Source of the DNA: Streptomyces hygroscopicus
Lineage (GTDB): Bacteria > Actinomycetota > Actinomycetes > Streptomycetales > Streptomycetaceae
DNA: 64,000 nucleotides
Assembly: GCA_002021875.1 (NCBI GenBank)
Contig: CP018627.1
Span: 10,478,001-10,542,000, forward strand
Direction: 5' to 3'
The notes below the pieces were generated by a model, which saw only the letters and a list, made by a program, of their open reading frames with translations, was not told the origin of the DNA and did not search any database. Shown one piece after another: positions 20,559-58,773 of the stretch. Numbering within the stretch: position 1 is the stretch's first letter; each line of letters opens with the position of its first letter. The position numbers and the translations under genes are program-made.

Positions 20559-20691
20559 CTGTTGTCTCCATTGCTCGTGATGGTGGTGCGGCATGAGGAG
20601 ACTGAGGCGGGTCGCTCACAGGGGGCTGATACGGCGCTGACACGGGCGCCCTGATTTGGGGCCTTGCGGGTGGGCGCGCGAAGATCGGGGA

Positions 20692-42407: not shown

Positions 42408-44783
42408 TCAGACCGTATCCTCCGGCGGGTGTTCGCCATCGGCCTCCGCGGTGCGGTGCTGTTCCGCTACCCAGACCGCCACCTGCGCACGCGAGGTGAA
42501 ACCCAGCTTGCTCAAAATGTGCTCAATATGGCCCTCGGCCGTGCGCTGGGCGATGACCAGGGACGAGGCGATCTCCTTGTTGCTGAGCCCCTGCGCGACC
42601 AGTCGCGCGATTTCGGACTCCCGGGGCGTCAGCGGCGACGGCCGCCCGCCCACCGCCGTCTCCTCGCTGGGCAGTTCGTCCTCGAGCGCGTACACCAGCG
42701 CCTCGGCGTAGGACAGCCGGGCGCCCCGTTTGAACGCCGCGTTGAAGGCCGCTTTGCCCAGGGCCCGCCGCACCGTGGCTTCGCACTCCTCGTGGTAGTG
42801 GACGAGATGCCCGTAGCCGGAGTGCGGGGCGCCGATGGCGTGCCAGATGGTCCGCAGGGCGCCGAGCAGCCCGGCCGCCCGCGTATGGTCCCGGTCGGTG
42901 GCCGCGATCCAGGCCAGCACCTCCAGATTGACCGCGACACCCAGCGGATCGTCCAGCGAGCGGTTGAACGTGAGGCTGTCCTTCTCCAGGGCGGCCGCCC
43001 GGGCGGTGTCGCCCTGGCGCCAGACGTCCATGCCGAGCGCCATCATCGTGTAGGCCCGGTGCCAGCCCTCCCCGTACGCGTCGCACACCGCCAGCGACTC
43101 CTCGCCCAGGGCGATCGCGCGTGGTGAGTCGCCGATGAAGGAGTGGGCGAGCGAGAGCCGGATGAGCGCCAGGGCCAGCCCCACCGGATCGCCGGTCGCG
43201 CGATGGCGGGTCACGGCCTCCTCGTAGAGCGCGATCGCGGATCGGGTCTCGCCCCGGTACATGGCGACCATGCCGGAGTAGAGCGCGGTGTAGGCGAGCA
43301 CCGGGTCCAGGCCCAGCCGGGTCCCGATGGACCGGCTCTCCTCGAGCATGGCCGCGGCGGCATCGGTGTCCGACTGGATGACGGCCAGCCAGCTGTCGGT
43401 CCACAGGGCCCGCGCCCGTGCCCCGGTCGGTTCGGTGCACAGCGCCAGGGCCCGGTCCAGCCAGCGGCGGCCCTCGCCGAGGTAGTAGCTGGTGATCCAG
43501 TGGTAGAGCAGATCGGCCGCCATCTCCAGACCGCGGCCGGTCTGCCCTGGCTCGGCCAGGCAGCCCTCCAGCGCGGTGCGCAGATTGGCGTGCTCCAGCT
43601 GGAGCCGGGCGAACCACTGCACCTGGGCCGGTCCGAAGAGCGCCGCCCGCGCGTCCGCGGCGAGCCCGCGGTAGTAGTCGCGATGGCGCTCCAGCCGTAC
43701 GGCCTCCTCCCCGGCGGCGGCCAGCCGCTCACGGCCGTAACCGCGCAGTGTGTCCAGCATCCGGTAGCGCACCGTCGTCCGGTGCTCCTCTCTGAGCAGC
43801 ACCGACTTGTCCACCAGCTCGGTCACCAGGTCCAGGATCTCCTCGCGGTCGATGCCCTCGCCCGAGCAGACCGCCTCGGCCGCGTCCAGGTCCAGGCTTC
43901 CGGCGAACACCGAGACCCGGGCCCACAGCAGCCGCTCCCGCTCGGTGCACAGCTCATAGCTCCAGTCGATCAGCGCCCGCAGCGTCTGATGGCGGGGGAG
44001 GACCGTCCGGGAGCCGGTGGTCAGCAGCCGGAACCGGTCGTCGAGCCGGTCCAGCAGCTGCTGGACGGACAGGGCGCGCAGCCGTACGACCGCGATCTCG
44101 ATGCCCAGCGGGATGCCGTCGAGCCGGCGGCAGATCAGCTCGATGGCGTCGCGGTTGTCCTCGGTGAGCTGGAATCCGGGCACGATGGCCGCCGCCCGCT
44201 CGGTGAACAGCCGTATCGCGTCGCACCGCGCGAGGGTGGCGAGGGTGGGCCGTGGACCTTCGAGGTCCGGCAGCCCGAGGGTGGGGACGGCCAGGCTCTG
44301 CTCACCGGCCGTGCCCAGCGCCTGACGGCTGGTGGCCAGCAGCCGCAGCCGGGGCGCCGCGCGCAGCAGCCGGTCGGCGAGCCGGGCGCACTCCTCCAGG
44401 AGGTGTTCGCAGTTGTCGAGGACGATCAGTGCCTGCCGGTCCCGCAGATGGTCGACGAGGACGTCAAGCGCCGGGCGGGGGGAGTGGTCCCGTATCTCCA
44501 GTGCTTCGGTGACGCCCTGGGCGAGCATCGCGGGGTTGTCCAGCTCGGCGAGTTCGGCCAGCCAGACGCCGTCGGGGAAGGCCCGGCGCGCCTCGTCCGC
44601 CACCCGCAGCGCCAGCCGGGTCTTGCCCACTCCGCCGACGCCGGTGAGGGTGACCAGGCGGGACGCGGACAGCATCTCCTTGACCTCGGCCGCCTCATGC
44701 CGACGTCCCACAAAACTCGTCACCTCGGCCGGCAGCCTGACTGTCTGCCGTCCGGTCGGGGTGCTCGTCGCCACCGCACCCAT
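42408..44783 (-). CDS. LuxR-family regulator with N-terminal NB-ARC ATPase and TPR-like region
   Basis: 791 residues. An ATPase domain (about 20-330) begins with VTSFVGRRHEAAEVKEML. It has Walker A GVGGVGKT at residues 48-55, Walker B ALIVLDNCEHLL, and RLLATSRQALG, typical of the AfsR/LuxR NB-ARC group. Helical TPR-like repeats (about 340-700) follow. The C-terminal LuxR-type helix-turn-helix (about 725-785) reads SPLTPRESEIARLVAQGLSN and KEIASSLVIAQRTAEGHIEH, then ILSKLGFTSRAQ. It is divergent from the DUF5999 gene across a 305-base region. Regulators of this type switch on ligand and ATP binding. No target is apparent, though the three LAL genes lie 1.2 kb away. Confidence 0.92.
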   Translation of the reverse strand: MGAVATSTPTGRQTVRLPAEVTSFVGRRHEAAEVKEMLSASRLVTLTGVGGVGKTRLALRVADEARRAFPDGVWLAELAELDNPAMLAQGVTEALEIRDHSPRPALDVLVDHLRDRQALIVLDNCEHLLEECARLADRLLRAAPRLRLLATSRQALGTAGEQSLAVPTLGLPDLEGPRPTLATLARCDAIRLFTERAAAIVPGFQLTEDNRDAIELICRRLDGIPLGIEIAVVRLRALSVQQLLDRLDDRFRLLTTGSRTVLPRHQTLRALIDWSYELCTERERLLWARVSVFAGSLDLDAAEAVCSGEGIDREEILDLVTELVDKSVLLREEHRTTVRYRMLDTLRGYGRERLAAAGEEAVRLERHRDYYRGLAADARAALFGPAQVQWFARLQLEHANLRTALEGCLAEPGQTGRGLEMAADLLYHWITSYYLGEGRRWLDRALALCTEPTGARARALWTDSWLAVIQSDTDAAAAMLEESRSIGTRLGLDPVLAYTALYSGMVAMYRGETRSAIALYEEAVTRHRATGDPVGLALALIRLSLAHSFIGDSPRAIALGEESLAVCDAYGEGWHRAYTMMALGMDVWRQGDTARAAALEKDSLTFNRSLDDPLGVAVNLEVLAWIAATDRDHTRAAGLLGALRTIWHAIGAPHSGYGHLVHYHEECEATVRRALGKAAFNAAFKRGARLSYAEALVYALEDELPSEETAVGGRPSPLTPRESEIARLVAQGLSNKEIASSLVIAQRTAEGHIEHILSKLGFTSRAQVAVWVAEQHRTAEADGEHPPEDTV

Positions 44784-45785: not shown

Positions 45786-45918
45786 ACGTGAGCCGACGAA
45801 AGGAGATGCCATAGACGACTTCATGCCTCGTACCCACACAGTGATACCGAAGGGCCCGGGGGCGGAATGGTGATCGCCCTCACCACGCCTTCCGTCTCCG
45901 GGCTCCACTGAATCGATA

Positions 45919-45948
45919 TTGATCGTCGTCACAGCGGTCGTGTAGCCT
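45919..45948 (+). promoter_or_regulatory. Candidate promoter for the LAL regulator cluster
   Basis: TTGATC (45919-45924) and TAGCCT (45943-45948) are 18 bases apart in an A/T-rich intergenic region, about 70 bases before the first LAL start. The flanking AATCGATATTGATC is partly symmetric and may be an operator. Confidence 0.4.
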
Positions 45949-46016
45949 CCTGATCGCGGCATTAGCAAACTTTTCCGGAAGATTGTTCGCGTTTTGTGGC
46001 TCTAGGAGGCTGCGTG

Positions 46017-48914
46017 GTGGACCGGAAAATCGATTCCGGTTTACCCGGCGCGCTTGTCGGGCGCGCTGCCGAACTCGCGGCGCTGACCGCCCACGCGGAG
46101 GCCGCCCACAACGGCCGTTCCGGTCTGGTGGTCCTGTCGGGCCCGGCCGGAATCGGCAAGACCAGCCTGCTGCGCGCCTTCCTCGACAGCGACGTCTGCC
46201 GGAAGATGACCGTTCTGCACGGCACCTGCGGTCAGGTGGTGGCCGGCGCCGGCTACAGCGGAGTGCGTGCCCTCTTCGGGGGACTCGGGCTCTCGGCCGA
46301 GGACGCCCAGGACTCCCCGCTGCTGCGCGGCAGCGCCCGCCGCGCTCTTCCCGCGCTCAGCCCCCACCCGGGCGAGGAGGGACCGCCCACGGCGGCCTCC
46401 GTCTACCCGGTGCTGCACGGCCTGTACTGGCTTGCGGCCAACCTGATGACCCAGGGCCCGCTCGTGCTGGTCCTGGACGATGTGCACTGGTGCGACGAGC
46501 GGTCCCTGCGCTGGATCGACTTCCTGCTGCGCCGGGCCGACGAGCTGCCGCTGCTGGTGGTGCTCGCCCAGCGCACCGAGGAGGAGCCGGTCGCCCCCGC
46601 GACCCTGGCGGACGTCCTCGCCCAGCCCCGCTCCTCGGTGATCCGCCTTGACCCGCTGACCGACACCGAAGTGGCCGAAATGGCCCGCCAGGTCTTCGCG
46701 GTCCCCGTCGCGCACTCCTTCGCCGGGCGCGCCGCCGCCGTCTGCGGCGGCAATCCGCTGACCGTCACCCGGCTGTTGCGCGAGCTGCGGGCCAAGGGCG
46801 TCTCACCCGACGAGACCGGCCTGCGCGAGATCGCCGAGGTCGGGCAGTACGTGGTCGCCCTCTCCGTGCGCGCCCTCTTCGAGGCCCGGCCCGCCTGGGT
46901 CCGGGAGGTGGCCACCGCCATCGCGGTGCTCGGCGAGGAGGACGTGGAGCACGTCGGCGCGCTGGCCGGGGTGCCCGCGGCCCGTGTCGCGGAAGCCGTG
47001 GAGCTGCTGCGCGGGGCCGAGGTGATGGCGCCGGACCGGGCGGACCTGGCCCATGACGTGGTGCGCTCCGCGGTTCTGGAAGCCGCCGGGGAGGGGCCGC
47101 TGGCCGAGCTGCGCGCCCGGGCGGCACTGCTGCTGAGCGATGCCGGACGGCCCGCCGAGGAGGTCGCCAACCAGGTGCTGCTGGTGCCCGGCACCCCCCA
47201 GCCGTGGATGGGCTGGGTGCTGCGGGAGGCCGCCGTCCAGGCCGAGCACCGAGGCGCCCCGGAGGCCGCCGCCCGCTATCTCTACCGCGTCCTGGAGGCG
47301 GAGCCGGACAGCCTGTCGGCCCATGTCCCGCTCGCCAAGGCGCTCGCGGAGATCAATCCCGCCGAGGCCATCCGCCTGCTCAGGCGCGCGCTCACCCTGG
47401 CCACCGACGTCCGGACCAAGGCGCCCGTCGCCGTGCAGTTCGGCCTCACCTGCCTCACCGTCCAGCAGTCACCGACCGCCGTCCGGGTGCTCAGCGAGGT
47501 GCTCGACGAGCTCGAGGCCGAGCTGGGGCCCGACCCCGATCCGCGCGACCGTGAGCTGCGCACCCTCGTCCAATCGGCGCTGCTGATCAGCGGATCCGAC
47601 GAGAAGGCCACGATCCATACGGTCCGGGAGCGCTTCGCGCGGATTCCCGAACCCTCCGGGGACACCCCCGCCCAGCGGCAGATGCTCGCCATGATGACGG
47701 TCCTGTCCGCGATGGAGGGCCGCTCGGTGCGGCGGACCGTGGAACAGGCCCACCGCGCGCTGAGCTCCTCGGACCGGCTCGACAACTGGTCGCTGCTCTT
47801 CTCCGCGTTCACCCTGGGCCTGGCCGACGAGGTCGAGGGGGCGATGGAGGCGCTGGACCACGCGCTGCGCCAGGGCCAGGACAACGCCGCGGTGTGGTCG
47901 TATGTGATCACCCTGTCCTACCGCGCCATGCTGCTGCACGGCTTCGGCGCGATCCCCGACGCGCTCGCCGACGCCCAGACCGCCGTCGAGATCATCGGCG
48001 AGGAGCGCTGGAGCGGCAATGTGACCATGCCCCAGACCGCGCTGGCGACGATCCTGATCGACCGGGGCGAACCGGAGCGGGCCGAGGAGCTGCTGGCCGC
48101 CGTCACCCGGCCGAACCTGGACGGGTTCGTCATGGAGTACCACTGGTATCTCATGGCCCGGGCCCGGGCCCGCTGGGCGCTCGGCGACGGCGCCACCGCG
48201 CTGCGGCTGCTGCTCGACTGCGGCGCCTCGCTGGAGGATTCCGGTTTCGCCAACCCGGCGTTCGTGCCCTGGTGGACCGAGGCGGCCTGTGTGCTCGCGG
48301 CGGAGAAGCGGGCGGACGAGGCGCGGGACCTGGTCGAGCACGGCGCCGAGCTGGCCCGCCGCTGGAGCACCCCGCGCGCCTTCGGGCTCGCCGCCCTCGC
48401 CCGCGGGGTGACCACCCCCGGCGAGGAGGGCATCGCGCATCTCACCGAGGCGGTCGAGCACCTCTCCGGGTCGCCCGCCCGCGCCGAGCACGCCCGGGCC
48501 GAGTTCCTGCTCGGCGGGGCGCTGTTGGACATCGGGCGGCCGCGCGACGCCCGGGAGCGGCTGCGCTCGGCCGTCGACCTCGCCCAGGGCTGCGGCGCGC
48601 TCGCGCTCGCCAAGGACGCCCGTAACCGGCTGGTCGCCGCGGGCGGCCGGATGCGTGAGATCACCGCCTCACCGGTCGATCTGCTCACCGGCACCGAGCG
48701 CAAAGTGGCCCAAATGGCCTCGCTCGGGGCGGGCAACCGTGAGATCGCCGAGTCGCTGTTCGTCACCGTACGCACCGTCGAGACCCATCTCACCAGCGTC
48801 TACCGGAAGCTGAGTGTCGGTCAGCGCGGTGAGCTGGCCTCGGTGCTGAACACCCCGAGCCTTCCCGACCCACAGGCACCGGCGTGGGTCTTCGCCTCCC
48901 GCGGCCGACGCTGA
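46017..48914 (+). CDS. LAL-family LuxR regulator 1 (intact Walker A)
   Basis: 965 residues from GTG at 46017, seven bases after AGGAGG; the GTG at 46014 is also possible. The ATPase domain has LVGRAAELAAL, Walker A GPAGIGKT (42-49) and Walker B LVLVLDDVHWCDE (149-161). Helical repeats fill the middle. The C-terminal LuxR helix-turn-helix (about 900-950) shows LTGTERKVAQMASLGAGNRE, IAESLFVTVRTVETHLTSVY and RKLSVGQRGELA. The length and order fit NysRI/AmphRI-type activators of polyene biosynthesis. It is the first of three tandem LALs and the only one with an unaltered Walker A lysine. It is probably activated by ATP and an inducer and then drives target promoters. Confidence 0.92.
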   Translation: MDRKIDSGLPGALVGRAAELAALTAHAEAAHNGRSGLVVLSGPAGIGKTSLLRAFLDSDVCRKMTVLHGTCGQVVAGAGYSGVRALFGGLGLSAEDAQDSPLLRGSARRALPALSPHPGEEGPPTAASVYPVLHGLYWLAANLMTQGPLVLVLDDVHWCDERSLRWIDFLLRRADELPLLVVLAQRTEEEPVAPATLADVLAQPRSSVIRLDPLTDTEVAEMARQVFAVPVAHSFAGRAAAVCGGNPLTVTRLLRELRAKGVSPDETGLREIAEVGQYVVALSVRALFEARPAWVREVATAIAVLGEEDVEHVGALAGVPAARVAEAVELLRGAEVMAPDRADLAHDVVRSAVLEAAGEGPLAELRARAALLLSDAGRPAEEVANQVLLVPGTPQPWMGWVLREAAVQAEHRGAPEAAARYLYRVLEAEPDSLSAHVPLAKALAEINPAEAIRLLRRALTLATDVRTKAPVAVQFGLTCLTVQQSPTAVRVLSEVLDELEAELGPDPDPRDRELRTLVQSALLISGSDEKATIHTVRERFARIPEPSGDTPAQRQMLAMMTVLSAMEGRSVRRTVEQAHRALSSSDRLDNWSLLFSAFTLGLADEVEGAMEALDHALRQGQDNAAVWSYVITLSYRAMLLHGFGAIPDALADAQTAVEIIGEERWSGNVTMPQTALATILIDRGEPERAEELLAAVTRPNLDGFVMEYHWYLMARARARWALGDGATALRLLLDCGASLEDSGFANPAFVPWWTEAACVLAAEKRADEARDLVEHGAELARRWSTPRAFGLAALARGVTTPGEEGIAHLTEAVEHLSGSPARAEHARAEFLLGGALLDIGRPRDARERLRSAVDLAQGCGALALAKDARNRLVAAGGRMREITASPVDLLTGTERKVAQMASLGAGNREIAESLFVTVRTVETHLTSVYRKLSVGQRGELASVLNTPSLPDPQAPAWVFASRGRR

Positions 48915-48959
48915 CGGGCAGGCGGGGCCGGGTGCCATGTCCGCCCCCCGCCCCAGGCA

Positions 48960-48965
48960 TATAGT
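48960..48965 (+). promoter_or_regulatory. Candidate -10 box for a leaderless LAL2 transcript
   Basis: TATAGT at 48960-48965 matches the Streptomyces -10 consensus and ends six bases before the LAL2 ATG at 48972, where no ribosome-binding site is present. Transcription starting at this ATG would give a leaderless mRNA. Confidence 0.45.
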
Positions 48966-48971
48966 CACACC

Positions 48972-51728
48972 ATGCAGCTCAACGGGCTCCCGTTCCCCGG
49001 CCGTGAACGAGAGCAGGCCATGCTTGCCCAGACCGTCGCCGATCTCGGCAGGGGCCGTTCCTCGGTGGTGACGCTGATCGGCAGACCCGGCTACGGACAG
49101 AGCCGTCTGCTGAACCTCGCCGCCCGGCTGGCCGAGGACCAGGGCTATCGCGTTCTGCGCGCCCAGGCGACGCCGGGCGAGCGCGAGGTGCGCTACGGCG
49201 TGGTGGCACAGTTGCTGACCCCGATGGACGGACTCACCGACGGCTCGCTGAAGGCCCTGACCGGACGGGGACCCGAGAGCCGCTTACCGGGCCTGACCGA
49301 GTTGCTACGAACCGCGCGTGGACAGCCCACGCTGCTGGTGGTCGATGATGTGGAATGGCTGGACCCGGCCTCGCAGCGCTGGTTCGGGGCGCTCATCCGG
49401 CGCCTGCCCGACGCCCGGATCGCCCTGCTGGTGAGCGGCACCGGCCGGCTCCGCCCGGGCGCCTGCCCCCTTTCCACCGCGCCGCAGCAGGTGATCACCC
49501 TCGAAGTCGAGCTGGCCCCGCTCGCTCCGCGCGATGTGGCCGCCACGGTCGCGCTGATCTGCGACCGCCCCGGCGAGCCCGCCTTCACCTCGGCCGCCCT
49601 GGAGGCCAGCGCGGGCAACCCCGAGGTGCTGTCCGAGGCGCTGAGGCGCTTCATCAGACGCGGATACGCACCGGTGGCCGGGCGGGTGCCGGAACTGTCC
49701 ACGATCGCCGAGGCCGTCAGCGGTGAACTCGCCGTCCGCGCACTCGGAGCGCTGTCCGACACGGCCGTCGCCGTCGTCCGCGCCCTCGCCGTCTGCGGCG
49801 ATCTGCTGGATCTGTCCCTGCTGTACGCGCTCGCGGATCCCCGCGCCGCGAGCGAGCCCGGACTGCCCGAGGCACTCCAGGAAAGCGGGCTCGCCACCGC
49901 CACCGAGACCGGGCTCCGGCTGAGCCGGCCCGAGGCGCGGAGCTGGATCCTCGCCGAGATGCCCGGCGACGAGCGGGCCGAACTGCACGCCCGCGCCGCC
50001 GAGTTGGCCTACCGGGCGGCCGTACCCGACGAGGACATCGCCCGGCTGCTGCTCGCCGCCCGCCCGGTCGACGAGCCCTGGGTGATCCCCGTACTGCGCC
50101 GTACCTGCGCCGCCGCACTGCGCGGGGGCCGGACCGCCCAGGCGATCGCCTGCCTGTCGCGGGCGCTGGAGGAACCGCTGGACCCGGCGCCGCGCGCCCA
50201 GTTGGGCCTGGAACTGGCCGCCGTCGAAGTGCTGGCCGTCCCCGAGGCCGCGGGCCGCCGGCTGGCGGAGATCATCCGCACCGGCGACGGCGGGCCCGGC
50301 CGGATCCGGGTACGCGCCGCCGACCTGGGGCTCTCCCGCGGCGACGACAAGGCCCTGCGCCGCGCGATCGCCGACGTACTGCCCTTCACCGACGGCGAGG
50401 AACGAGGGGCCCTGGCCGGGCTGTTCTGGCTCACCGAGTCCGTCGGGCAGGAGGACACCGATCTGGTCCCGGACGGCATCCCCCCGCTGCCCGCCGACCC
50501 CACCTGCCCGGTGCAGGCCGCGGCGCTCGCCTGGCGACTGGCCCTGCGCGGCGAGGACCTGCCCACCGCCCGGGCGCTGGCCCAGCGGGTCTTCACCGTG
50601 GACGGCGCCGCGGGGGCCCTGATCCTGCCCCGGCTCACCGCCGCCCGCACCCTGCTGCTGACCGACGACCTGGACGAGGCCGAGGTCCGGCTGGACGTGC
50701 TCAACACCGATCTGCGCAGGCGGCACGCCCGCGCGGCCGCCGCACAGGCCATGGCCGTGCGCGGCGAGCTGAACCTGCGGCGCGGCCGGCTCGACATGGC
50801 CGAACGGGACGTGGCCGCCGCGGAGCGGTCACTGCCGCGCTCCCTCTGGCATCGCTACACCGTCCCGTATCTGATGGCCATCCGGATCCTCATCGCCCTG
50901 GAGAACGGCGATGTCGGCCAGGCCAGTGCGCTCGCGGGCGCGTCCGCGCCCGCCGAGTCGCGGGAGGGCGGCTCCTGGGGCTATCTGCTCTTCGCCAGGG
51001 CGCTGGTGGCCGTCAAGGACGACCGGCTGCCCGAGGCGCTGGAGCTGTTCCGCTCCACCGGCAGGTGGGAGCTGGGCCGCGGACGGATCAACCCCGCCCT
51101 GATGCCTTGGCGTTCGATGGCCGCCCGGGTCCACGACGCCCTCGGCGACCACGAGGAGGCACGGCGGCTCACCGATGAGGAGCTCGCGCTGGCCCGGCTG
51201 TGGGGCGCCCCCAACACGATCGGCTGGGCTCAGCTGGGCGCCGGACGGCTGGCCCGCGAGGGGCAGGTCGACCGTCTCCGCGAGGCGGTGGCCACCCTGC
51301 GCGACACCCCGGCCCGGCTCGCCTACGCGGGGTCCCTGATGGAGCTGGCCACGGCCGAGCTCGACGCCGGGAACCCGCGGGCCGCGGCCCCCCTGGTGGC
51401 CGAGCTGTTCACCTTCGCCATCGCCCACCGGTCCTCCAGCCGGCTGGTCGAACGGGTGCGCGCGCTGTCCGAGCGGGCCGGGCCGTCCGCCGTTCGCGGA
51501 CGCGTCCCGCATCCGGCGTGGGCGAGCCTGACCGAACCCGAACAGCGCACCGCGGCCCTTGTCGGACTCGGTCATGGCAACCGGGAGATAGCGGAAACCC
51601 TCTCTGTCACCAGACGCACCGTGGAGCTGAGGCTCAGCGGCGCGTACCGGAAGCTGGGGATCAGCGGCCGAGCAGAGCTGATCGCGTTGCTGCGGGCGGC
51701 AGAGGGAGGCGGAACGGATGTTGCTTGA
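48972..51728 (+). CDS. LAL-family LuxR regulator 2 (Walker A Lys replaced by Gln)
   Basis: 918 residues. ATPase region: GREREQAMLAQTV, then Walker A GRPGYGQS at 37-44 with Gln43 (codon 49098-49100) where the family has Lys, and Walker B TLLVVDDVEWLD. Helical repeats follow. The C-terminal helix-turn-helix (about 855-910) reads SLTEPEQRTAALVGLGHGN and REIAETLSVTRRTVELRLSG, then AYRKLGISGRAELIAL. Loss of the lysine should prevent normal ATP hydrolysis, so the protein may work as a constitutive or modulating partner of LAL1. No ribosome-binding site precedes the ATG. The stop overlaps the start of LAL3 by 11 bases. Confidence 0.9.
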   Translation: MQLNGLPFPGREREQAMLAQTVADLGRGRSSVVTLIGRPGYGQSRLLNLAARLAEDQGYRVLRAQATPGEREVRYGVVAQLLTPMDGLTDGSLKALTGRGPESRLPGLTELLRTARGQPTLLVVDDVEWLDPASQRWFGALIRRLPDARIALLVSGTGRLRPGACPLSTAPQQVITLEVELAPLAPRDVAATVALICDRPGEPAFTSAALEASAGNPEVLSEALRRFIRRGYAPVAGRVPELSTIAEAVSGELAVRALGALSDTAVAVVRALAVCGDLLDLSLLYALADPRAASEPGLPEALQESGLATATETGLRLSRPEARSWILAEMPGDERAELHARAAELAYRAAVPDEDIARLLLAARPVDEPWVIPVLRRTCAAALRGGRTAQAIACLSRALEEPLDPAPRAQLGLELAAVEVLAVPEAAGRRLAEIIRTGDGGPGRIRVRAADLGLSRGDDKALRRAIADVLPFTDGEERGALAGLFWLTESVGQEDTDLVPDGIPPLPADPTCPVQAAALAWRLALRGEDLPTARALAQRVFTVDGAAGALILPRLTAARTLLLTDDLDEAEVRLDVLNTDLRRRHARAAAAQAMAVRGELNLRRGRLDMAERDVAAAERSLPRSLWHRYTVPYLMAIRILIALENGDVGQASALAGASAPAESREGGSWGYLLFARALVAVKDDRLPEALELFRSTGRWELGRGRINPALMPWRSMAARVHDALGDHEEARRLTDEELALARLWGAPNTIGWAQLGAGRLAREGQVDRLREAVATLRDTPARLAYAGSLMELATAELDAGNPRAAAPLVAELFTFAIAHRSSSRLVERVRALSERAGPSAVRGRVPHPAWASLTEPEQRTAALVGLGHGNREIAETLSVTRRTVELRLSGAYRKLGISGRAELIALLRAAEGGGTDVA

Positions 51729-54525
51729 ACGGGAGGCCGAACTGGCCCAGGTCGCGGAGGCCCTGCGGGCCGGGGCGGCGGGCGACTCGTCGCTGGTGTT
51801 ACTCACCGGCCCCATGGGCATCGGCCGGACCGCGCTGCTGCAGCAGCTGCCGATGCTCGCCGAGGGCGAGGAGATCCACGTCCTGCGCGCCAACGCCGCG
51901 CCGGTGGAGCAGGACTTCGCCCTCGGCGTGGTCCGCCAGCTCTTCGACAGCCTGCTGACCGGTGTCCCGGAGGAACTCCACGAGTGCCGGCTGGGGGGAG
52001 AGGGCGACCTCTACCGGACGGTCTTCTCCGACGACGCCCCGCTGCTCGACGACGGCGGAACTCGAACGATGCCCGAGGAGGCGCTGTACGGCCTGCGCTC
52101 GGCGGTGGCTGCGGTCAGCGCCGACAGCCCGCTGCTCATCCTGGTGGACGACCTGCAGTGGGTCGACGCCCCGTCGCTGCGCTGGCTCGCCTTCCTCGTC
52201 AAGCGGTTGCACGGGCTGCGCGCCGTGGTCGTCTGCGCGCTGCGGGACGGCTACCGGCGCCCCGGGGACCCTCTGCTGCGGGAGCTCGTCGACGCGGCGC
52301 GGCGGGAGCTGCGCCCCGCGCCGCTGTCGCTGGGCGCCACCAAGGAAGTGATCCACGAGCAGTTCGGCGTGCCGGGGGACGAGGAGTTCGCCCGCGCCTG
52401 CCATGAGACCTCCGCGGGCAACCCGCTGTTCCTGAAGTCGGTGCTGGCGGACCTGGCCATGGGCGGCCTGCGGCCCACCGCCGAGCAGGTCGAGGCGGTC
52501 CGCTCGCTGCGCCCCGCCCTGCTGCGCGAGCGGCTGGCCGGCTCCCTGCGCGTCCAGCCGCGGCCGGCGCGGGACCTGGCCGCGGCCATCGCGGTCCTCG
52601 GCGGCCAGGCGGAACCGGACCTGCTGGCCCGGCTGGCCGGGCTGGACCCGATCGGCTTCCTGGCCACGCTGCGCGACCTCCACGAGGTGGGGCTGCTCGC
52701 CGCCGAGCAGGAGCCGCGCTTCCTCCACCGGGTGGTGCAGGACGCGGTCGAGTCCTCGATGACCGTGGCGGAACGGGAGCGGCTGCACGACGCCGCGGCG
52801 GCCCTGCTGTACCACGACGGACGCCCCGCCGAACTGGTCGCCGCCCAGCTCATGGCCGTCACCAGCTCGAGCCATCCCTGGGCGGTGGAGGTGCTGCGGG
52901 CCGCGGCGGACACCGCGCTGCGCCGCGGAGCGCCGCGTACCGCCGCCCGCTATCTGCGCCGCGCCCTTCTGGACGGCTCGCTGGCGGGGGAGGGCCGGGC
53001 CCGGCTGCTGATCGATCTGGCCACCGCGGAGCGCGGCTTCGACCCGGCCGCCTGCGAACGCCATATCTCCCAGGCGATACCCCTGCTGACCACGCCCAGG
53101 CTCCGGGCCGCCGCGGCCCTGCGGATCTCGCCGACCATCGTGGGCCTGGGTCCCCCGTCGGCCATCGATCTGCTGCACCAGGTCGCCGAGGACCTGGGGC
53201 CCGCGACCTCGCTGGAGGGCACGGCGCGAGATGTGGCGCTGCGGCTCGAGGCGCGGCTGCGACACGCCGGACACGAGGATCCGGCGGAGCTGGCCGCCGC
53301 GGTGGAGCGGCTGTCCGCGCTGGGGGAGGATCCGGCGCTGATCACCGCGGCCGAGCGGGAGCTGACGGCGGTGCTGCTCAACTCGGCGGTGCTCACCGCC
53401 CGATGGCCCGCGGCCGAGGTCTCCCGGCTGGCGAACCGCATCCTGGAGCGTGAACCCGCCACCTCCGAACAGGTCCACACCCCGCTGCCGCTGGTGGTGA
53501 TCGGGCTGGTCGCCGCCGATTCGGTACGGGGGATCAGCTCCTGGCTCGCGATGGAACAGCAGACGCGGCGGCAGGGCGGCACGGTCGCCGACGCGCTCGT
53601 CAACGTCCAGCAGGCGATGGTGCTCAGCGCCCGGGGGCGCGTCTCCCAGGCGCGTGAGTACGCCGAGCGGGCCGTGCGGCTGGCCGAGGTGCACTGGCAG
53701 GAGGCCGGGGTCGTCTCCACCCTCGCCCTCACCCGCGTCGCCCTGGACCTTCAGGACCCCGTACTGATCGAGCGGATTCTGGACGGCCCCGGGCGGCGGC
53801 GCTCCTCGAGCCTGGCCCTGACCGCGACGCTGCAGTTCGCCAAGGCGGCGCAGGACGCCGGGAACGGACGCTGGACCAGCGCCCTGGAAACCCTCCTGGC
53901 CTGCGGCCGACAGCTGGAGGCATCGGGCTGGCGCAACCCCGTGCTCTTCGCCTGGCGGCCCTGGGCGGCCGAGCTTCACCGGCGCGTCGGCGACCCCGGC
54001 GCGGCCGGGGCGCTGGCCGAGGAGGAGCTGCTGCGGACGAAGGAGTGGGGCGCCCCGGTGGCGCTGGGCCGCGCGCTGCGGGTGAAGGCCCGGCTGCTCG
54101 GCGGTGACCAGGGGGTGCGGCTGCTGCGTGAATCGGTCGATGTGCTGCGCGCCTCGGCCGATGAACTGGAACTCGCCCGCACGCTCCTGTCGCTGGGCCG
54201 GCAGCTGAGACCGGGCGGCGAGGCGACGGCGGTGCTCCAGGAGGCCGGTGGCCTGGCCGCGGCGTGCGGGGTCCCATGGCTGGTCGAGCGGATCCGCGCC
54301 GCGGACGGCAGCGGTGCGTCGGCCGCCCCGCCGGAGGCGGCCCTCACCCGAACCGAGCGCACCGTGGCCTCCCTTGTGGGACGCGGCCTCACCAACCAGG
54401 AGGTCGCCGCCGAGCTGGGGGTGAGCTCCCGCGCCATCGAGAAGCATCTGACGAGTTCCTATCGCAAACTGGGCGTCTCCGGACGCCGCGAGCTCATCGA
54501 GCTGCTGCCTCGCATGGATTCGTGA
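51718..54525 (+). CDS. LAL-family LuxR regulator 3 (Walker A Lys replaced by Arg)
   Basis: 935 residues from an ATG that overlaps the LAL2 stop by 11 bases; a GGAGGCGGA site lies inside LAL2. N-terminal LEREAELAQVAEAL, Walker A GPMGIGRT (31-38) with Arg37 (codon 51826-51828) instead of Lys, Walker B LLILVDDLQWVD. Helical repeats follow, and the C-terminal helix-turn-helix (about 875-930) reads LTRTERTVASLVGRGLTNQE, VAAELGVSSRAIEKHLTSSY and RKLGVSGRRELIEL. The size and order fit NysRIII-type regulators. Lys-to-Arg at this position usually lowers or abolishes ATPase activity. The gene ends 252 bases before the PAS-LuxR gene. Confidence 0.9.
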   Translation: MLLEREAELAQVAEALRAGAAGDSSLVLLTGPMGIGRTALLQQLPMLAEGEEIHVLRANAAPVEQDFALGVVRQLFDSLLTGVPEELHECRLGGEGDLYRTVFSDDAPLLDDGGTRTMPEEALYGLRSAVAAVSADSPLLILVDDLQWVDAPSLRWLAFLVKRLHGLRAVVVCALRDGYRRPGDPLLRELVDAARRELRPAPLSLGATKEVIHEQFGVPGDEEFARACHETSAGNPLFLKSVLADLAMGGLRPTAEQVEAVRSLRPALLRERLAGSLRVQPRPARDLAAAIAVLGGQAEPDLLARLAGLDPIGFLATLRDLHEVGLLAAEQEPRFLHRVVQDAVESSMTVAERERLHDAAAALLYHDGRPAELVAAQLMAVTSSSHPWAVEVLRAAADTALRRGAPRTAARYLRRALLDGSLAGEGRARLLIDLATAERGFDPAACERHISQAIPLLTTPRLRAAAALRISPTIVGLGPPSAIDLLHQVAEDLGPATSLEGTARDVALRLEARLRHAGHEDPAELAAAVERLSALGEDPALITAAERELTAVLLNSAVLTARWPAAEVSRLANRILEREPATSEQVHTPLPLVVIGLVAADSVRGISSWLAMEQQTRRQGGTVADALVNVQQAMVLSARGRVSQAREYAERAVRLAEVHWQEAGVVSTLALTRVALDLQDPVLIERILDGPGRRRSSSLALTATLQFAKAAQDAGNGRWTSALETLLACGRQLEASGWRNPVLFAWRPWAAELHRRVGDPGAAGALAEEELLRTKEWGAPVALGRALRVKARLLGGDQGVRLLRESVDVLRASADELELARTLLSLGRQLRPGGEATAVLQEAGGLAAACGVPWLVERIRAADGSGASAAPPEAALTRTERTVASLVGRGLTNQEVAAELGVSSRAIEKHLTSSYRKLGVSGRRELIELLPRMDS

Positions 54526-54660
54526 ACGTAGCGTTAACGGCGATAATTGGCGGGTGTTTGACGAGGATTCGTGAACCGACCGTACCGGCCCACCGAAGCG
54601 GTGGGGTGCGGACCGAACCTTCGGACCACCCCACCACGGGATTGGGCGGCGACACCCCTG

Positions 54661-54696
54661 TTGACGTTGACTTCCGTACTCGTAGATCCCTAGTCT
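54661..54696 (+). promoter_or_regulatory. Candidate promoter(s) of the PAS-LuxR gene
   Basis: Two overlapping options: TTGACG (54661) with TAGATC (54683), spacer 16; and TTGACT (54667) with TAGTCT (54691), spacer 18. Downstream, an A/T-rich stretch (54715-54760) contains two TATTCGG copies and GAATATTC. Confidence 0.5.
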
Positions 54697-54776
54697 CAAT
54701 TCTGAAATGAACATTTGGAATTGAATATTCGGTATTCGGTTCCGAATTCTGAGAATTAGGAAGGGATGGCAGTCCC

Positions 54777-55463
54777 TTGGCATTGCCTTTACTGACCGAT
54801 TCGGCTCGGCCAACCCCCCACGAGCTTGGACACGAGCAGACCGAGTACACGGATCTATTGCGCCAGTTCGACCAGCCAGGGGCCTGTGTCGTCTGTCTTG
54901 ACCCGTCGCTCACCGTCCAGCAGGCGAACCGGGAGTTCTTCCGGCAGTTCGACGACGCCTCCACGGACGTTTGCGGCCGTGACTTCTGTGACCTTCTGCA
55001 CCCCAGTGTGCGGCAGGCGGTGAAGCGGCAGTTCACCCGGCTCCTCGACGGCTCCCGTCACCGGTTCACCACCCATGTGGTGGCCATCGGGGCCGAGGGG
55101 GCCGCCTTCACCAGCGGGCTCACGGCGGTCGCCGTGCGCGAGGGCTCCGCCCATGTGGCCTCGATCCTGGTGGTCCTGCGGCCCACGGCGGGTGGCGAGG
55201 AGGTGGACATGGTCACCGACCGTAAGAAGCTCCTCACCGAGACCGAGGCGCGCATTCTGGAGGGCATCGCTGCCGGGCTCTCCACGATCCCCCTGGCCTC
55301 CCGGCTCTACCTCAGCCGGCAGGGTGTCGAGTACCACGTGACACGGCTGCTGCGGAAGCTGCGGGTGCCCAACCGGGCCGCCCTCGTCTCCCGCGCCTAC
55401 TCCATCGGCGTCCTCAACGTCGGCTGCTGGCCGCCAAAGGTCGTCGACGACTTCGTCAAATGA
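54777..55463 (+). CDS. PAS-LuxR regulator of the PimM/NysRIV type
   Basis: 228 residues. The PAS domain (about 30-140) has QPGACVVCLDPSLTVQQANR, EFFRQF, GRDFCDLLHPSVRQAVKRQF and TRLLDGSRHRFTTHVVAIG. The C-terminal LuxR helix-turn-helix (about 155-215) has TETEARILEGIAAGLSTIPL and LYLSRQGVEYHVTRLLRKLR, followed by VPNRAALVSRAYSIGVLNVG. These sections, including the final CWPPKVVDDFVK, match the PAS-LuxR group of polyene regulators (PimM, AmphRIV, NysRIV). In that group the regulator activates polyene macrolide genes. The start is a TTG, 12 bases after AGGAAGG; a tiny ATG frame at 54766 lies in between. No GGGA-WW-TCCC operator core was seen nearby. Confidence 0.88.
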   Translation: MALPLLTDSARPTPHELGHEQTEYTDLLRQFDQPGACVVCLDPSLTVQQANREFFRQFDDASTDVCGRDFCDLLHPSVRQAVKRQFTRLLDGSRHRFTTHVVAIGAEGAAFTSGLTAVAVREGSAHVASILVVLRPTAGGEEVDMVTDRKKLLTETEARILEGIAAGLSTIPLASRLYLSRQGVEYHVTRLLRKLRVPNRAALVSRAYSIGVLNVGCWPPKVVDDFVK

Positions 55464-55536: not shown

Positions 55537-57222
55537 TCAGGACGGGGCCGGGCCCCGGGACAGCCGCAGCAGACGGAAGGCGGTGAGCGCCACATGGAGT
55601 TGGGTGCGCTGCTCACCCGACTCCAGATCGCAGCCGAGCACCCGCTCTATCGAGTGCAGCCGCTGGTAGAACGCCTGGCGGGACAGGTTCGCGCGCTTGG
55701 CGGCCACCGTCTTGTTGCCCGCCGCGTCCAGAAAGGTGTGCAGCACCGGCAGCAGATCGGTGCCGTGCCGCTCGTCGTAGTCCACCAGCCGTCCCAACTG
55801 CCGCTCCACGAACTCCTGGAGCCGCACATCGCCGCGCAGCGCGTACAGCAACTGCCGCAGCCCGATGTCGGACAGCTCGTGGAACGCCTTGTCCGGCGTC
55901 CCCGGAACGGCGGCGTCCGCGACCCGCGCCGCCTGCTGGAACGACCGGGCGGTCTGTGACAGCTCCGACACCTCCGAGCCGACGCTGATCACGGCCTCCG
56001 GACGGGACTCCCGCACCGACCGGCTCAGCCGCTCCACCAGCGGCCGCCAGGGCGTGGCGGCGGGCAGGGCCAGCAGAACCCCTATGTGGTCACCGGGCAC
56101 CGCGCCGACCAGCACGGCGGCCCCGGCCGCCCCCAGCTCGTCCGTCAGCCGGTCCTCCAGCTCGGTCGTCTCCCCGGCGCCGGGGCCGGGGCTGACCAGT
56201 GCCACCATCAGCCGGCGGCCCGCGACCGGCACGCCCAGCGCCTCGGCCCTGGCCCGGGCCTCCCCCATCGAACGGCAGCGCTGCTCCACCAGGTCCAGCA
56301 GCAGCGTGCGCTGGGCCCGCCGCTCCCAGCGGGTGTGATGGGTGAGCCGGGCGATGGTCAGGGCCGTGGCGGTGCGCTCCAGGACCATCGCGTCCTCGGG
56401 ACCGACCGCCGAGTGCCCGGCCCCGTCCGGGAGCATCAGCAGCCGCCCCCACCGCTCGCCCCGGTACTCCACCGCGGTCACCAGCCAGTCCTCCGGACCG
56501 CTCAGCCCGGTCCGGTCGGGCGAGGGCGTGGCGCGCGAGCGCCGCTCCCAGCCGGTCAGCGCCCCCTCCACGCCGCGCCCCGGCGAACCGCAGATCACGG
56601 CCTGGTGCACCAGGTTCTCCAGCACCACGGGATGCCCGCTCATCTCGGCCGCCATGTCCACCACCTCCTCGGGCCCGGCGCCCCGCAGGGTCAGCGCGGT
56701 GAAGGTGTCATGGACGTCCTGGGCCCGGCGCAGGCTCTCCACCTGACTGCCGACGATCAGGGAGTGGAGGACCTGGGTGACCTCCACGAAGTTCACGGTC
56801 CGGGAGAGCAGGACGAGCGGGAAGTCCCGCGCCAGACAGGCCCGCACCAGCTCCGACGGCGGCCGGTGGTAGCGCCGCACCAGCTCGATGACCAGCCCGG
56901 CGGCGCCGATGTCCGCGAGCTCGTCGACATACCGGCGGACCAGCGCCGGGTCCTCGGGCAGCGGCATCCCGGTGGTCAGCACCAGCTCCCCGCCCTTGAG
57001 GAAGGACGCCGGGTCGAGCAGTTCGGTGACATGTACCCAGCGGACCGGCCGGGACAGCTGCCCATGGCCGGACACCACCTCCGGCACCCCGGCGGCCAGC
57101 ACCGGAAGCCGCAGCACGTCGGCGAGGCTGAGGGGGGAGCGCCCCGGGACCCGCGGGGGCCCGGCGGGGCGGGACGGCGGCCGTCCGGCGGCGTCGTACG
57201 CGGTGCCGCCGGAGCCGTTCAT
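55537..57222 (-). CDS. PucR-family transcriptional regulator
   Basis: 561 residues from the ATG at 57222; a frame 12 codons longer is possible. The N-terminal PucR domain (about 30-150) has LADVLRLPVLAAGVPEVVSG, VRWVHVTELLDPASFLKGGELVLTTGMPLP, with core HVTELLDPASFL. A GGDEF-like middle follows. The C-terminal PucR helix-turn-helix (about 495-550) reads LLPVLHTFLDAAGNKTVAAK and RANLSRQAFYQRLHSIERVL, then GCDLESGEQRTQLHVALTAF. It diverges from the GABA aminotransferase and aldehyde dehydrogenase genes. This arrangement is a frequent design for GABA or polyamine catabolism in actinobacteria, so it probably activates them on sensing an amino-acid-derived signal. Confidence 0.9.
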   Translation of the reverse strand: MNGSGGTAYDAAGRPPSRPAGPPRVPGRSPLSLADVLRLPVLAAGVPEVVSGHGQLSRPVRWVHVTELLDPASFLKGGELVLTTGMPLPEDPALVRRYVDELADIGAAGLVIELVRRYHRPPSELVRACLARDFPLVLLSRTVNFVEVTQVLHSLIVGSQVESLRRAQDVHDTFTALTLRGAGPEEVVDMAAEMSGHPVVLENLVHQAVICGSPGRGVEGALTGWERRSRATPSPDRTGLSGPEDWLVTAVEYRGERWGRLLMLPDGAGHSAVGPEDAMVLERTATALTIARLTHHTRWERRAQRTLLLDLVEQRCRSMGEARARAEALGVPVAGRRLMVALVSPGPGAGETTELEDRLTDELGAAGAAVLVGAVPGDHIGVLLALPAATPWRPLVERLSRSVRESRPEAVISVGSEVSELSQTARSFQQAARVADAAVPGTPDKAFHELSDIGLRQLLYALRGDVRLQEFVERQLGRLVDYDERHGTDLLPVLHTFLDAAGNKTVAAKRANLSRQAFYQRLHSIERVLGCDLESGEQRTQLHVALTAFRLLRLSRGPAPS

Positions 57223-57424
57223 GCCGCTCACTCTGGCAAGCCCCCGCGCCGAGCGCAACCATCACCCCGCCCGGCATCTTGACAAGAGCCGTGTGGGAGG
57301 TCGTTGACAGATCGTCCATACCGATCACCACCCCGCGACACAGTGATCATTGTCCTGACCGGGTTCGGCCCCTCACCCTCGAAGTGTCCGAGCGCATCGC
57401 CGACCTGTGCGTGTGGGAGAGAAC
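57223..57424. promoter_or_regulatory. Divergent control region of pucR-like and gabT genes
   Basis: About 200 bases between the divergent starts. TTGACA at 57304-57309 is a consensus -35 box, but a fitting -10 is not clear. TGATCA occurs at 57344-57349 inside GTGATCAT. The operator is unknown. Confidence 0.35.
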
Positions 57425-58684
57425 ATGACCAATCTGTCGCCGCAGCTCCGTCAAGCCACTCCGGTGGTCGCCGTCCGAGGAGAGGGCGCCTACATCGACG
57501 GCGAGGACGGGCGGCGATACCTCGACTTCACCGCGGGCATCGGCGTCACCAGCACCGGACACTGCCATCCGCGGGTCGTCGCCGCCGCGCAGGAGCAGGT
57601 GGGCACGCTCATCCACGGCCAGTACACGACCGTCATGCACCCACCGCTGCGGCGGCTGGTCGAGAAGCTCGGCGAGGTGCTCCCCACGGGCCTCGACAGT
57701 CTGTTCTTCTCCAACTCCGGCAGCGAGGCCGTCGAGTCGGCCCTGCGCCTCGCCCGCCAGGCCACCGGCCGGCCCAACGTTCTGGTCTGCCACGGCGGAT
57801 TCCACGGCCGCACCGTGGCCGCCGCCTCCATGACCACCTCCGGAACCCGTTTCCGCTCCGGCTTCTCGCCCCTGATGAGCGGCGTCGTGGTGACCCCGTT
57901 CCCCACGGCCTACCGGTACGGCTGGGACGAGGAGACCGCGACCCGGTTCGCCCTGCGGGAGCTGGACTACGTCCTGCAGACCATCTCCCCGCCCGACGAC
58001 ACCGCCGCGATCATCGTCGAACCGGTGCTCGGCGAGGGCGGCTACGTACCCGCCACCGAGGGCTTCCTGCAGGGCCTGCGGGAGCGGGCCGACCGCCATG
58101 GCTTCCTGCTGATCCTGGACGAGGTGCAGACCGGGGTGGGCCGCACCGGACGGTTCTGGGGCCACGACCACTTCGGCATCCGCCCCGACATCCTGGTCAC
58201 CGCCAAGGGACTGGCCAGCGGCTTCCCGCTGTCCGGCATCGCCGCCTCCGAGGAGCTGATGAGCAAGGCATGGCCCGGCTCCCAGGGCGGCACCTACGGT
58301 GCCAACGCCGTGGCCTGCGCGGCCGCCGCCGCCACCCTCGACGTGGTCCGCGAGGAGAACCTGGTGGCCAACGCCGAGGCCATGGGGGCGCGGCTGCGCA
58401 GCGGCCTGGAGGACGTGGCCGCCAAGACCCCGGCCATCGGCGATGTGCGCGGCCTCGGCCTCATGCTGGCCAGCGAATTCGTCACCGAGGACGGGGAACC
58501 CGACCCGGCGACCGCGGCCCGGGTGCAGCGCGCCGCCGTGGACGAGGGACTGTTGCTGCTCCTGTGCGGGGCCTGGAACCATGTGGTCCGGATGATCCCC
58601 GCCCTCGTCGTCGACGAAGCGGCGATCGACGAGGGCCTGCGCGCCTGGTCCGCCGCCGTCAGCGCCGGAACAGCGGACTCCTGA
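57425..58684 (+). CDS. gabT: 4-aminobutyrate aminotransferase (class III)
   Basis: 419 residues from an ATG preceded by GGGAGAGA; the ATG six codons earlier has no site. Class-III signatures: TAGIGVTSTGHCHPRVVAAA, FFSNSGSEAVESALRLAR, FHGRTVAAASMT, and the PLP block LILDEVQTGVGRTGRFWGHD with Asp. The lysine is in VTAKGLASGFPLSG, near residue 261. It transfers the amino group of GABA (or another omega-amino acid) to 2-oxoglutarate to give succinic semialdehyde. It is directly followed by an aldehyde dehydrogenase of the GabD type, so the pair completes GABA breakdown to succinate. Confidence 0.9.
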   Translation: MTNLSPQLRQATPVVAVRGEGAYIDGEDGRRYLDFTAGIGVTSTGHCHPRVVAAAQEQVGTLIHGQYTTVMHPPLRRLVEKLGEVLPTGLDSLFFSNSGSEAVESALRLARQATGRPNVLVCHGGFHGRTVAAASMTTSGTRFRSGFSPLMSGVVVTPFPTAYRYGWDEETATRFALRELDYVLQTISPPDDTAAIIVEPVLGEGGYVPATEGFLQGLRERADRHGFLLILDEVQTGVGRTGRFWGHDHFGIRPDILVTAKGLASGFPLSGIAASEELMSKAWPGSQGGTYGANAVACAAAAATLDVVREENLVANAEAMGARLRSGLEDVAAKTPAIGDVRGLGLMLASEFVTEDGEPDPATAARVQRAAVDEGLLLLLCGAWNHVVRMIPALVVDEAAIDEGLRAWSAAVSAGTADS

Positions 58685-58773
58685 CGCGCACCGCATATCG
58701 CCCAACGGGAGCCCGATCCGCCCGCCGGTCCGAACCCCTCGGACCGGCGGCGGTCACGAAGGAGATTGCCCCT

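Follow-up and report, generated by a model that had tools for sequence, protein, structure and literature searches.

The subject of this study is a 64,000-nucleotide window of the Streptomyces hygroscopicus chromosome (G000:C1:10478001-10542000 of a single 12,012,215-base contig), in which four regulatory genes stand together: three encode large ATP-binding regulators of the LuxR family (LALs) and the fourth encodes a PAS-LuxR regulator. We consider it probable that this quartet is an intact and maintained cascade of the nystatin type, that it has had no cluster beside it since the ancestor that the S. violaceusniger group shares with its sister lineages, and that it acts in trans. In that ancestor, the quartet would have parted from any polyketide cluster and would then have stayed at one chromosomal place. 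Through a composite sequence, the LALs would activate the PAS-LuxR gene, and its product would in turn act on unlinked targets in trans, at degenerate PimM-type sites. Since the relatives have kept the quartet without a cluster, whatever it controls probably lies elsewhere in the chromosome.

The four regulators and their closest relatives

Open reading frames (ORFs) were called by third-position GC content (GC3) and start-codon rules rather than by a gene finder. All four genes lie on the forward strand: LAL1 in the NysRI position (46017..48914), LAL2 in the NysRII position (48972..51728), LAL3 in the NysRIII position (51718..54525) and the PAS-LuxR gene of the NysRIV / PimM type (54777..55463). 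The frame of LAL1 is open from 45996, and its GTG start at 46017 is backed by AGGAGG at 46004-46009; the reading frames of LAL2 and LAL3 share an 11 bp overlap. In each LAL, Pfam detects an N-terminal AAA_16 and a C-terminal GerE domain, and in the fourth protein PAS_4/PAS plus GerE, in agreement with the three LALs and one PAS-LuxR proposed in the initial annotation. With three LALs of the 900-1000 aa class and one PAS-LuxR in the same direction, the set is of the NysRI-RIV type. The fourth protein, with a PAS domain, a conserved LuxR helix-turn-helix (HTH) and a size in the ~190-240 aa class, is of the PimM class, with which (PimM, PteF, FscRI) it has the highly conserved HTH region in common.

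The search with the PAS-LuxR protein returned 382 relatives at E <= 0.001; among the 120 matches listed, SlnM2 of S. lydicus is 65% identical over 84% of the length. LAL1 shares 63% identity with a protein from the nystatin producer S. noursei, and 56% and 53% with proteins from S. albidoflavus and S. rimosus, respectively. Much closer counterparts occur in Streptomyces niphimycinicus 4503, where the PAS-LuxR protein is identical in rounded percent and the LALs reach 96-97%, which places the host in the S. violaceusniger group. Outside the group and its sisters, class members among 80 loci (see below) are 52-68% identical to the PAS-LuxR protein.

In the portion of the literature available to us (this applies to every paper cited here), the NysRI-RIV, AmphRI-RIV, TtmRI-IV and FscRI-IV sets likewise consist of three LALs and one PAS-LuxR (PMC9774167). 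Cluster-linked homologues have the same LAL1-LAL2-LAL3-PAS order and the same composite sequence before the PAS-LuxR gene. By contrast with the polyene-cluster sets, no adjoining cluster genes were found at our quartet, and a different neighbour and a hairpin lie upstream of LAL1. Likewise, its PAS-LuxR gene differs from those of the PimM / PteF / FscRI class in that no cluster was found beside it.

The three LALs differ in their Walker A sequences: that of LAL1 (GPAGIGKT) is canonical, that of LAL2 (GRPGYGQS) is degenerate, and that of LAL3 (GPMGIGRT) has arginine in place of lysine. A canonical sequence (GKT/S) in LAL1 only is the rule both in the window and in most sets in which LAL3 precedes the PAS-LuxR gene (LAL3-PAS sets), cluster-linked ones included; LAL2 in most of these lacks the Walker lysine (GQN, GQS and similar), and LAL3 has GRT/S. 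Exceptions are GRT in LAL1 of L099, L115, L121 and L127 and GKS in LAL3 of L130. Sets with the PAS-LuxR gene first (L107, L110, L125, L131) have GRS in LAL1 and GKT in LAL3. The pattern suggests a hetero-oligomer that may comprise one ATP-binding regulator and two pseudo-ATPase regulators.

Chromosomal setting and conservation

Ketosynthase (KS) domains are abundant in this genome but remote from the quartet. A genome search with PF00109, scoring 150 of 195 candidates, gave 151 KS matches, the nearest to the quartet at 10,641,838. A scan for long ORFs over 10,420,001-10,790,000 encountered no KS-motif ORF of at least 800 aa before 10,641,637. Thus no KS was found within 104 kb to the left or 108 kb to the right, and the quartet sits neither inside nor at the edge of a polyene polyketide synthase (PKS) cluster. 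Among the ORFs listed between 10.42 and 10.64 Mb, the 28 largest, which include the three LALs, show no start resembling a PKS or nonribosomal peptide synthetase, most being judged from their first 60 residues. Polyene-cluster genes for a PKS, a thioesterase or a glycosyltransferase were not found next to the quartet. The orphan status claimed in the initial annotation therefore holds well beyond the window, and the polyene cluster just outside it that would have overturned the claim did not appear.

In many other quartet loci, a glycosyltransferase of our family F5 adjoins LAL1; because it lies next to quartets and has a weak Pfam match to UDPGT, we presume it to be a mycosaminyl (NysDI-type) transferase. 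One F5 query found no match genome-wide, and the same query in local tblastn picked out an 85% homologue adjoining the quartet of Kitasatospora sp. MAA4 (L265). Because the genome gave no match to a polyene-type glycosyltransferase, a classical glycosylated polyene cluster is unlikely.

The quartet is not peculiar to this strain. Species genomes were scanned with an alignment of 25 sequences, and 80 of 172 loci were kept; in 55 of these the PAS-LuxR gene directly follows the end of a LAL3 homologue. Seventeen loci (L068-L081, L092, L105, L124) belong to the violaceusniger group and to the lineages of S. milbemycinicus, S. sparsogenes and Streptomyces sp. NBS 14/10. All 17 have LAL1-LAL2-LAL3-PAS, in broken frames in L077 and L124. 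KS domains occur in none of the 17 stretches, compared with 14 of the 80 loci overall, the stretches reaching ~1 kb left of LAL1. Wider flanks were taken for ten genomes (G001-G010), while coverage of the other group members stops short of the far left side. NBS 14/10 (G001) has no KS in ~40 kb to the left and ~40 kb to the right, and S. sparsogenes (G002) none in ~40 kb to the left, its contig ending on the right; both have left neighbours of the window's quartet at 70-83% identity. Six of the ten genomes (G003, G004, G005, G006, G009, G010) have KS genes at most 20 kb left of the quartet. No KS was found in strain 150FB (G007) within 40 kb to the left and 19 kb plus the locus to the right, nor in Gandjariella (G008) within 15.6 kb to the left and 40 kb to the right.

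A tree of the four proteins (41 loci plus the window, 39 loci dropped; LG+G4, midpoint-rooted) unites the window and the 15 usable group and sister loci in one clade (UFBoot 100; 16 of 42 rows), apart from all other quartets. The quartets of 150FB and Gandjariella branch outside this clade. The tree was built without NysRI-RIV, AmphRI-RIV and FscRI-RIV and with the S. rimosus locus, S. noursei and S. albidoflavus being known from the search list only; within it, the quartet groups with cluster-linked sets and not with unrelated families. In order, domains, closest relatives and phylogeny, the set thus bears out the polyene type assigned to it at the outset. As the tree is midpoint-rooted, we infer the direction of descent from the many cluster-linked quartets around the clade.

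Selection on all four genes is purifying. When the window was compared with each of 13 relatives by the Nei-Gojobori method, dN/dS over the four genes was 0.03-0.66 (52 comparisons, using the best tblastn segment per gene and leaving out L072, L077, L092 and L124), and the aligned segments contain no in-frame stop. Constraint is strongest on the PAS-LuxR gene (0.03-0.43) and weakest on LAL2 (0.25-0.66). The neighbouring genes gave 0.03-0.17 (GabT) and 0.07-0.30 (PucR), so the LALs change faster than these neighbours.

To the right of the quartet (55537-60246) lie a PucR regulator gene on the reverse strand and then, on the forward strand, genes for an aminotransferase of the gamma-aminobutyrate (GABA) type and a dehydrogenase of the succinate-semialdehyde type; the orphan-like quartet of Gandjariella has weaker homologues of all three (34-41%) within 10 kb. 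Two more large regulators are encoded in the window, a LuxR/AAA/TPR protein (42408-44783) and a SARP-type BTAD protein (20656-24207), and the former is also encoded among the neighbours on the left side of the quartet in the genomes of NBS 14/10 and S. sparsogenes. Right of the window, G000:C1:10608974-10622921 holds genes resembling those of phage tails or contractile injection systems, including a 754 aa ORF with phage tail sheath domains. A second PAS-LuxR gene of the genome (G000:C1:1798946-1799605) is 46% identical, and its nearest KS in the PF00109 search is ~54 kb away. Its counterpart in S. himastatinicus has CTAGGGAATCCCCGAG 57 bp before a called start, a site not seen at the gene in the window's genome.

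The composite sequence and the region upstream of LAL1

When the gaps between LAL3 and the PAS-LuxR gene were aligned, conserved blocks extended far beyond the group. In the window, the predicted composite operator spans 54579..54645 on the forward strand and consists of ACCGTACC (54579-54586), CCACCGAA (54590-54597), ACCGAACC (54612-54619) and CCACGGGATTGG (54634-54645). The putative PAS-LuxR promoter follows on the same strand at 54661..54696, with two TTGAC sequences (54661-54665 and 54667-54671) at the -35 and TAGTCT (54691-54696) at the -10. ACCGAACC and the second TTGAC begin 55 bp apart, and GTTGAC at the -35 is invariant in 16 aligned loci.

The arrangement ACCGWACC-N45-48-TTGAC occurs in the window, in 52 of 55 LAL3-PAS loci and in three of five PAS-LAL1 loci. 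It is found in none of the eight SARP-LAL loci, those of S. natalensis, S. chattanoogensis and S. filipinensis among them, a class set by sequence clustering in which the two members scanned with Pfam (L113, L126) have BTAD plus AAA_16. As controls, the composite motif appeared in one of 11,000 first-order resampled upstream regions, and the reversed motif in none of the 80 loci. A further box, CCRCRGNNTT, sits between ACCGWACC and TTGAC. In the 1.55 Mb of the 80 loci, ACCGWACC-N10-16-CCRCRGNNTT occurs 65 times, of which 61 are in the PAS-LuxR promoter and four follow LAL3 in PAS-LAL1 loci; 1.58 Mb of the window's genome contain two occurrences, one of them at the quartet. Genome-wide, ACCGWACC-N43-51-TTGAC gave three sites compared with four for the reversed control, and the CCRCRG box is in register at only one of the three, the quartet's own. 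One of the others overlaps what we take to be a DnaA-box sequence.

We read the composite sequence as the putative operator of the LALs. TtmRI, TtmRII and TtmRIII are each said, in the review cited above, to regulate ttmRIV directly (PMC9774167). No description of ACCGWACC as a LAL site was found among the matches listed in our literature search, and the predicted operator at the PAS-LuxR promoter is a new element. A more specific scheme, in which one ATP-competent and two Walker-defective LALs would act as a hetero-oligomer on a single operator in the chromosome, that of the PAS-LuxR promoter, and the PAS-LuxR would coordinate several unlinked antifungal and other loci throughout the S. violaceusniger group, is speculative, and we advance it tentatively. 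In the four sets with the PAS-LuxR gene first (~19.1-19.7 kb), the composite operator recurs downstream of LAL3, before a gene of family F17; in L107 this second copy falls just inside the called start of the gene. The single F17 member that was scanned proved to be a GMC oxidoreductase.

Upstream of LAL1, a strong hairpin, probably a terminator, lies at 45852..45910 on the forward strand, between the upstream HATPase gene and LAL1. Folding of the window's sequence (45825-45910) gave a minimum free energy of -42.6 kcal/mol (z -4.2), with 0 of 200 shuffles as stable. The first motif of this block occurs in the window and in all 17 group and sister loci, and in none of 32 other loci scanned. We had first read the block as a promoter motif, a reading dropped because it folds as a hairpin. 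The hairpin probably makes the quartet its own transcription unit. A probable LAL1 promoter, TTGATC-N18-TAGCCT (45919..45948, forward strand), owes its assignment to conservation: in 13 aligned orphan loci, the window included, TTGATC and most of TCnTGTAGnCT are invariant. Given the hairpin block and this promoter, the input side is unlike that of cluster-linked sets, and the part from the LALs to the PAS-LuxR gene is kept.

Candidate targets and competing explanations

If the quartet acts in trans, sites of the PimM type would be expected at its targets. The genome contains seven near-sites with one mismatch and 37 with two, a total of 44 compared with 22 for a control pattern. Strain S465 has 32 near-sites compared with nine for the control (contexts read for 15 of the 32), and S. 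himastatinicus has 39 sites compared with 11, two of them exact (contexts read for 15 of the 39). In the PKS regions examined, no site with fewer than three mismatches precedes a PKS gene. Three kinds of location are weak candidates for targets. The divergent promoter of a PKS at 4.0 Mb has three mismatches here and one in S465; the promoter of an FG-GAP protein gene at 10,912,086 has one mismatch here and two in S465; and a clethramycin-type cluster has candidate sites at two of its promoters. In this cluster, the sulfotransferase promoter, a candidate likewise shared with S465, has CTAGGGAAnnnACTAG with four mismatches here, two to four in eight of nine aligned genomes and six in the ninth, and CTCGGGGGATCGCCAG, with three mismatches, lies upstream of the first PKS gene both here and in S465.

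Several other sites were set aside. A site with one mismatch at 5,230,635 was first taken for an operator of the clethramycin-type cluster and then rejected, since it falls within a called gene that we read as coding for an amine oxidase; GGGAATTTCCC at 2.73 Mb precedes a gene read as a metallo-hydrolase and not an antimycin cluster. In S. himastatinicus, two exact PimM-consensus sites stand 23 bp apart (G012:C2:10688815-10688853, L309), adjoining an FtsK/SpoIIIE-domain gene that resembles a type VII secretion ATPase. This tandem was rejected as an operator because it lies between two convergent gene ends.

A number of observations weigh against a trans-acting cascade. The exact PimM operator CTVGGGAWWTCCCBAG does not occur in the genome, 31 of the 44 near-sites lie inside called genes (13 lie outside), and no candidate target is conserved beyond doubt. 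ACCGWACC-N45-48-TTGAC is also present in four of 12 loci without a LAL adjoining the PAS-LuxR gene. In the text available, the rimocidin-cluster LAL RimR2 did not bind the promoter of the PAS-LuxR gene rimR1 in vitro (PMC9942304). Finally, LAL frames are broken in the assemblies of S. violaceusniger NBRC 13459 and S. himastatinicus, both outside the dN/dS test.

One other explanation is that the quartet has turned pleiotropic, serving primary metabolism or development through many weak sites rather than any one antibiotic cluster. PteF affects many genes beyond its own cluster (PMC4700089, PMC9394381). The intergenic near-site just before the FG-GAP protein gene is common to the window's genome and S465, and other near-sites shared with S465 lie 200-420 bp before genes read as a DeoR-type regulator and an anti-sigma-type ATPase; the PucR, aminotransferase and dehydrogenase genes on the right would also suit such a role. 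However, these near-sites are candidates by sequence only, and some of the right neighbours are absent from sister-lineage loci, so that adjacency alone means little. We regard this explanation as unlikely.

It is also doubtful, and in our judgement improbable, that the quartet is the displaced dedicated trans-activator of the clethramycin-type cluster. This cluster, which the search for polyene PKS genes elsewhere in the genome did turn up, is of the linear-polyene type and occupies 5.24-5.38 Mb, 5.1 Mb from the quartet; the search for PimM-type operators, likewise suggested in the initial annotation, gave no exact site. Its 27 KS in nine ORFs and the sulfotransferase gene at its edge fit the clethramycin cluster of S. 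malaysiensis DSM4137, described with 27 modules, nine subunits and an slf gene (PMC5704753), and the two promoter sites given above would suit direct control. Against this, the cluster encodes two LALs of its own, and the compared genomes are nearly alike at the sulfotransferase promoter, so that 16 conserved bases there prove little. A close sulfotransferase (at least 77%) is present in 10 of 16 quartet-bearing group and sister genomes, in one of them in two pieces; four have homologues of 52-56% and in two none was found, although drafts may miss genes (L072 was outside the search). The quartet thus persists in six genomes without a close sulfotransferase, and the clethramycin-type cluster can hardly be the sole reason for keeping it. 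Co-occurrence of the PAS-LuxR and this sulfotransferase in 80 relatives and the genome itself was uninformative: the best outside PAS-LuxR matches are 64-66%, so the sample apparently held no other group genomes.

That the quartet is the functionless, decaying remains of a lost polyene cluster is very improbable: its place among quartets that are often cluster-linked, the missing glycosyltransferase and exact operator and the two assemblies with broken LAL frames would be expected of decay, but selection on all four genes, the stop-free frames in 13 relatives, the conserved promoter and operator and the shared neighbours in two sister genomes speak against it, and the NBRC 13459 assembly also splits the sulfotransferase gene, which points to assembly errors there. 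The suggestion in the initial annotation that the set may be such remains therefore survives at most as a statement of ancestry, and the lineage-wide presence of the quartet likewise tells against decay.

We return to the maintained, clusterless cascade acting in trans, for which there are partial precedents. FscRI of S. albus S4 acts on the antimycin cluster (PMC5143413) and PteF on the oligomycin cluster (PMC9394381), so PAS-LuxR regulators of unlinked clusters exist, and the quartet may be a further case. However, FscRI and PteF retain their own polyene clusters, and the quartet has none beside it. Action of a PAS-LuxR outside its own cluster is thus already known; new here are the same parts, with apparently the same wiring, in the absence of a cluster. 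In the open-licence literature, we found no description of a complete regulator set without one.

Regulator genes serve as beacons for clusters, and here a whole set survives without one across large-genomed antibiotic producers. The quartet thus offers an uncluttered setting in which to ask whether "pathway-specific" cascades turn trans-acting. The composite operator amounts to an exact prediction of the DNA target of polyene LALs, and the quartet may offer a handle for waking silent clusters in the S. violaceusniger group.

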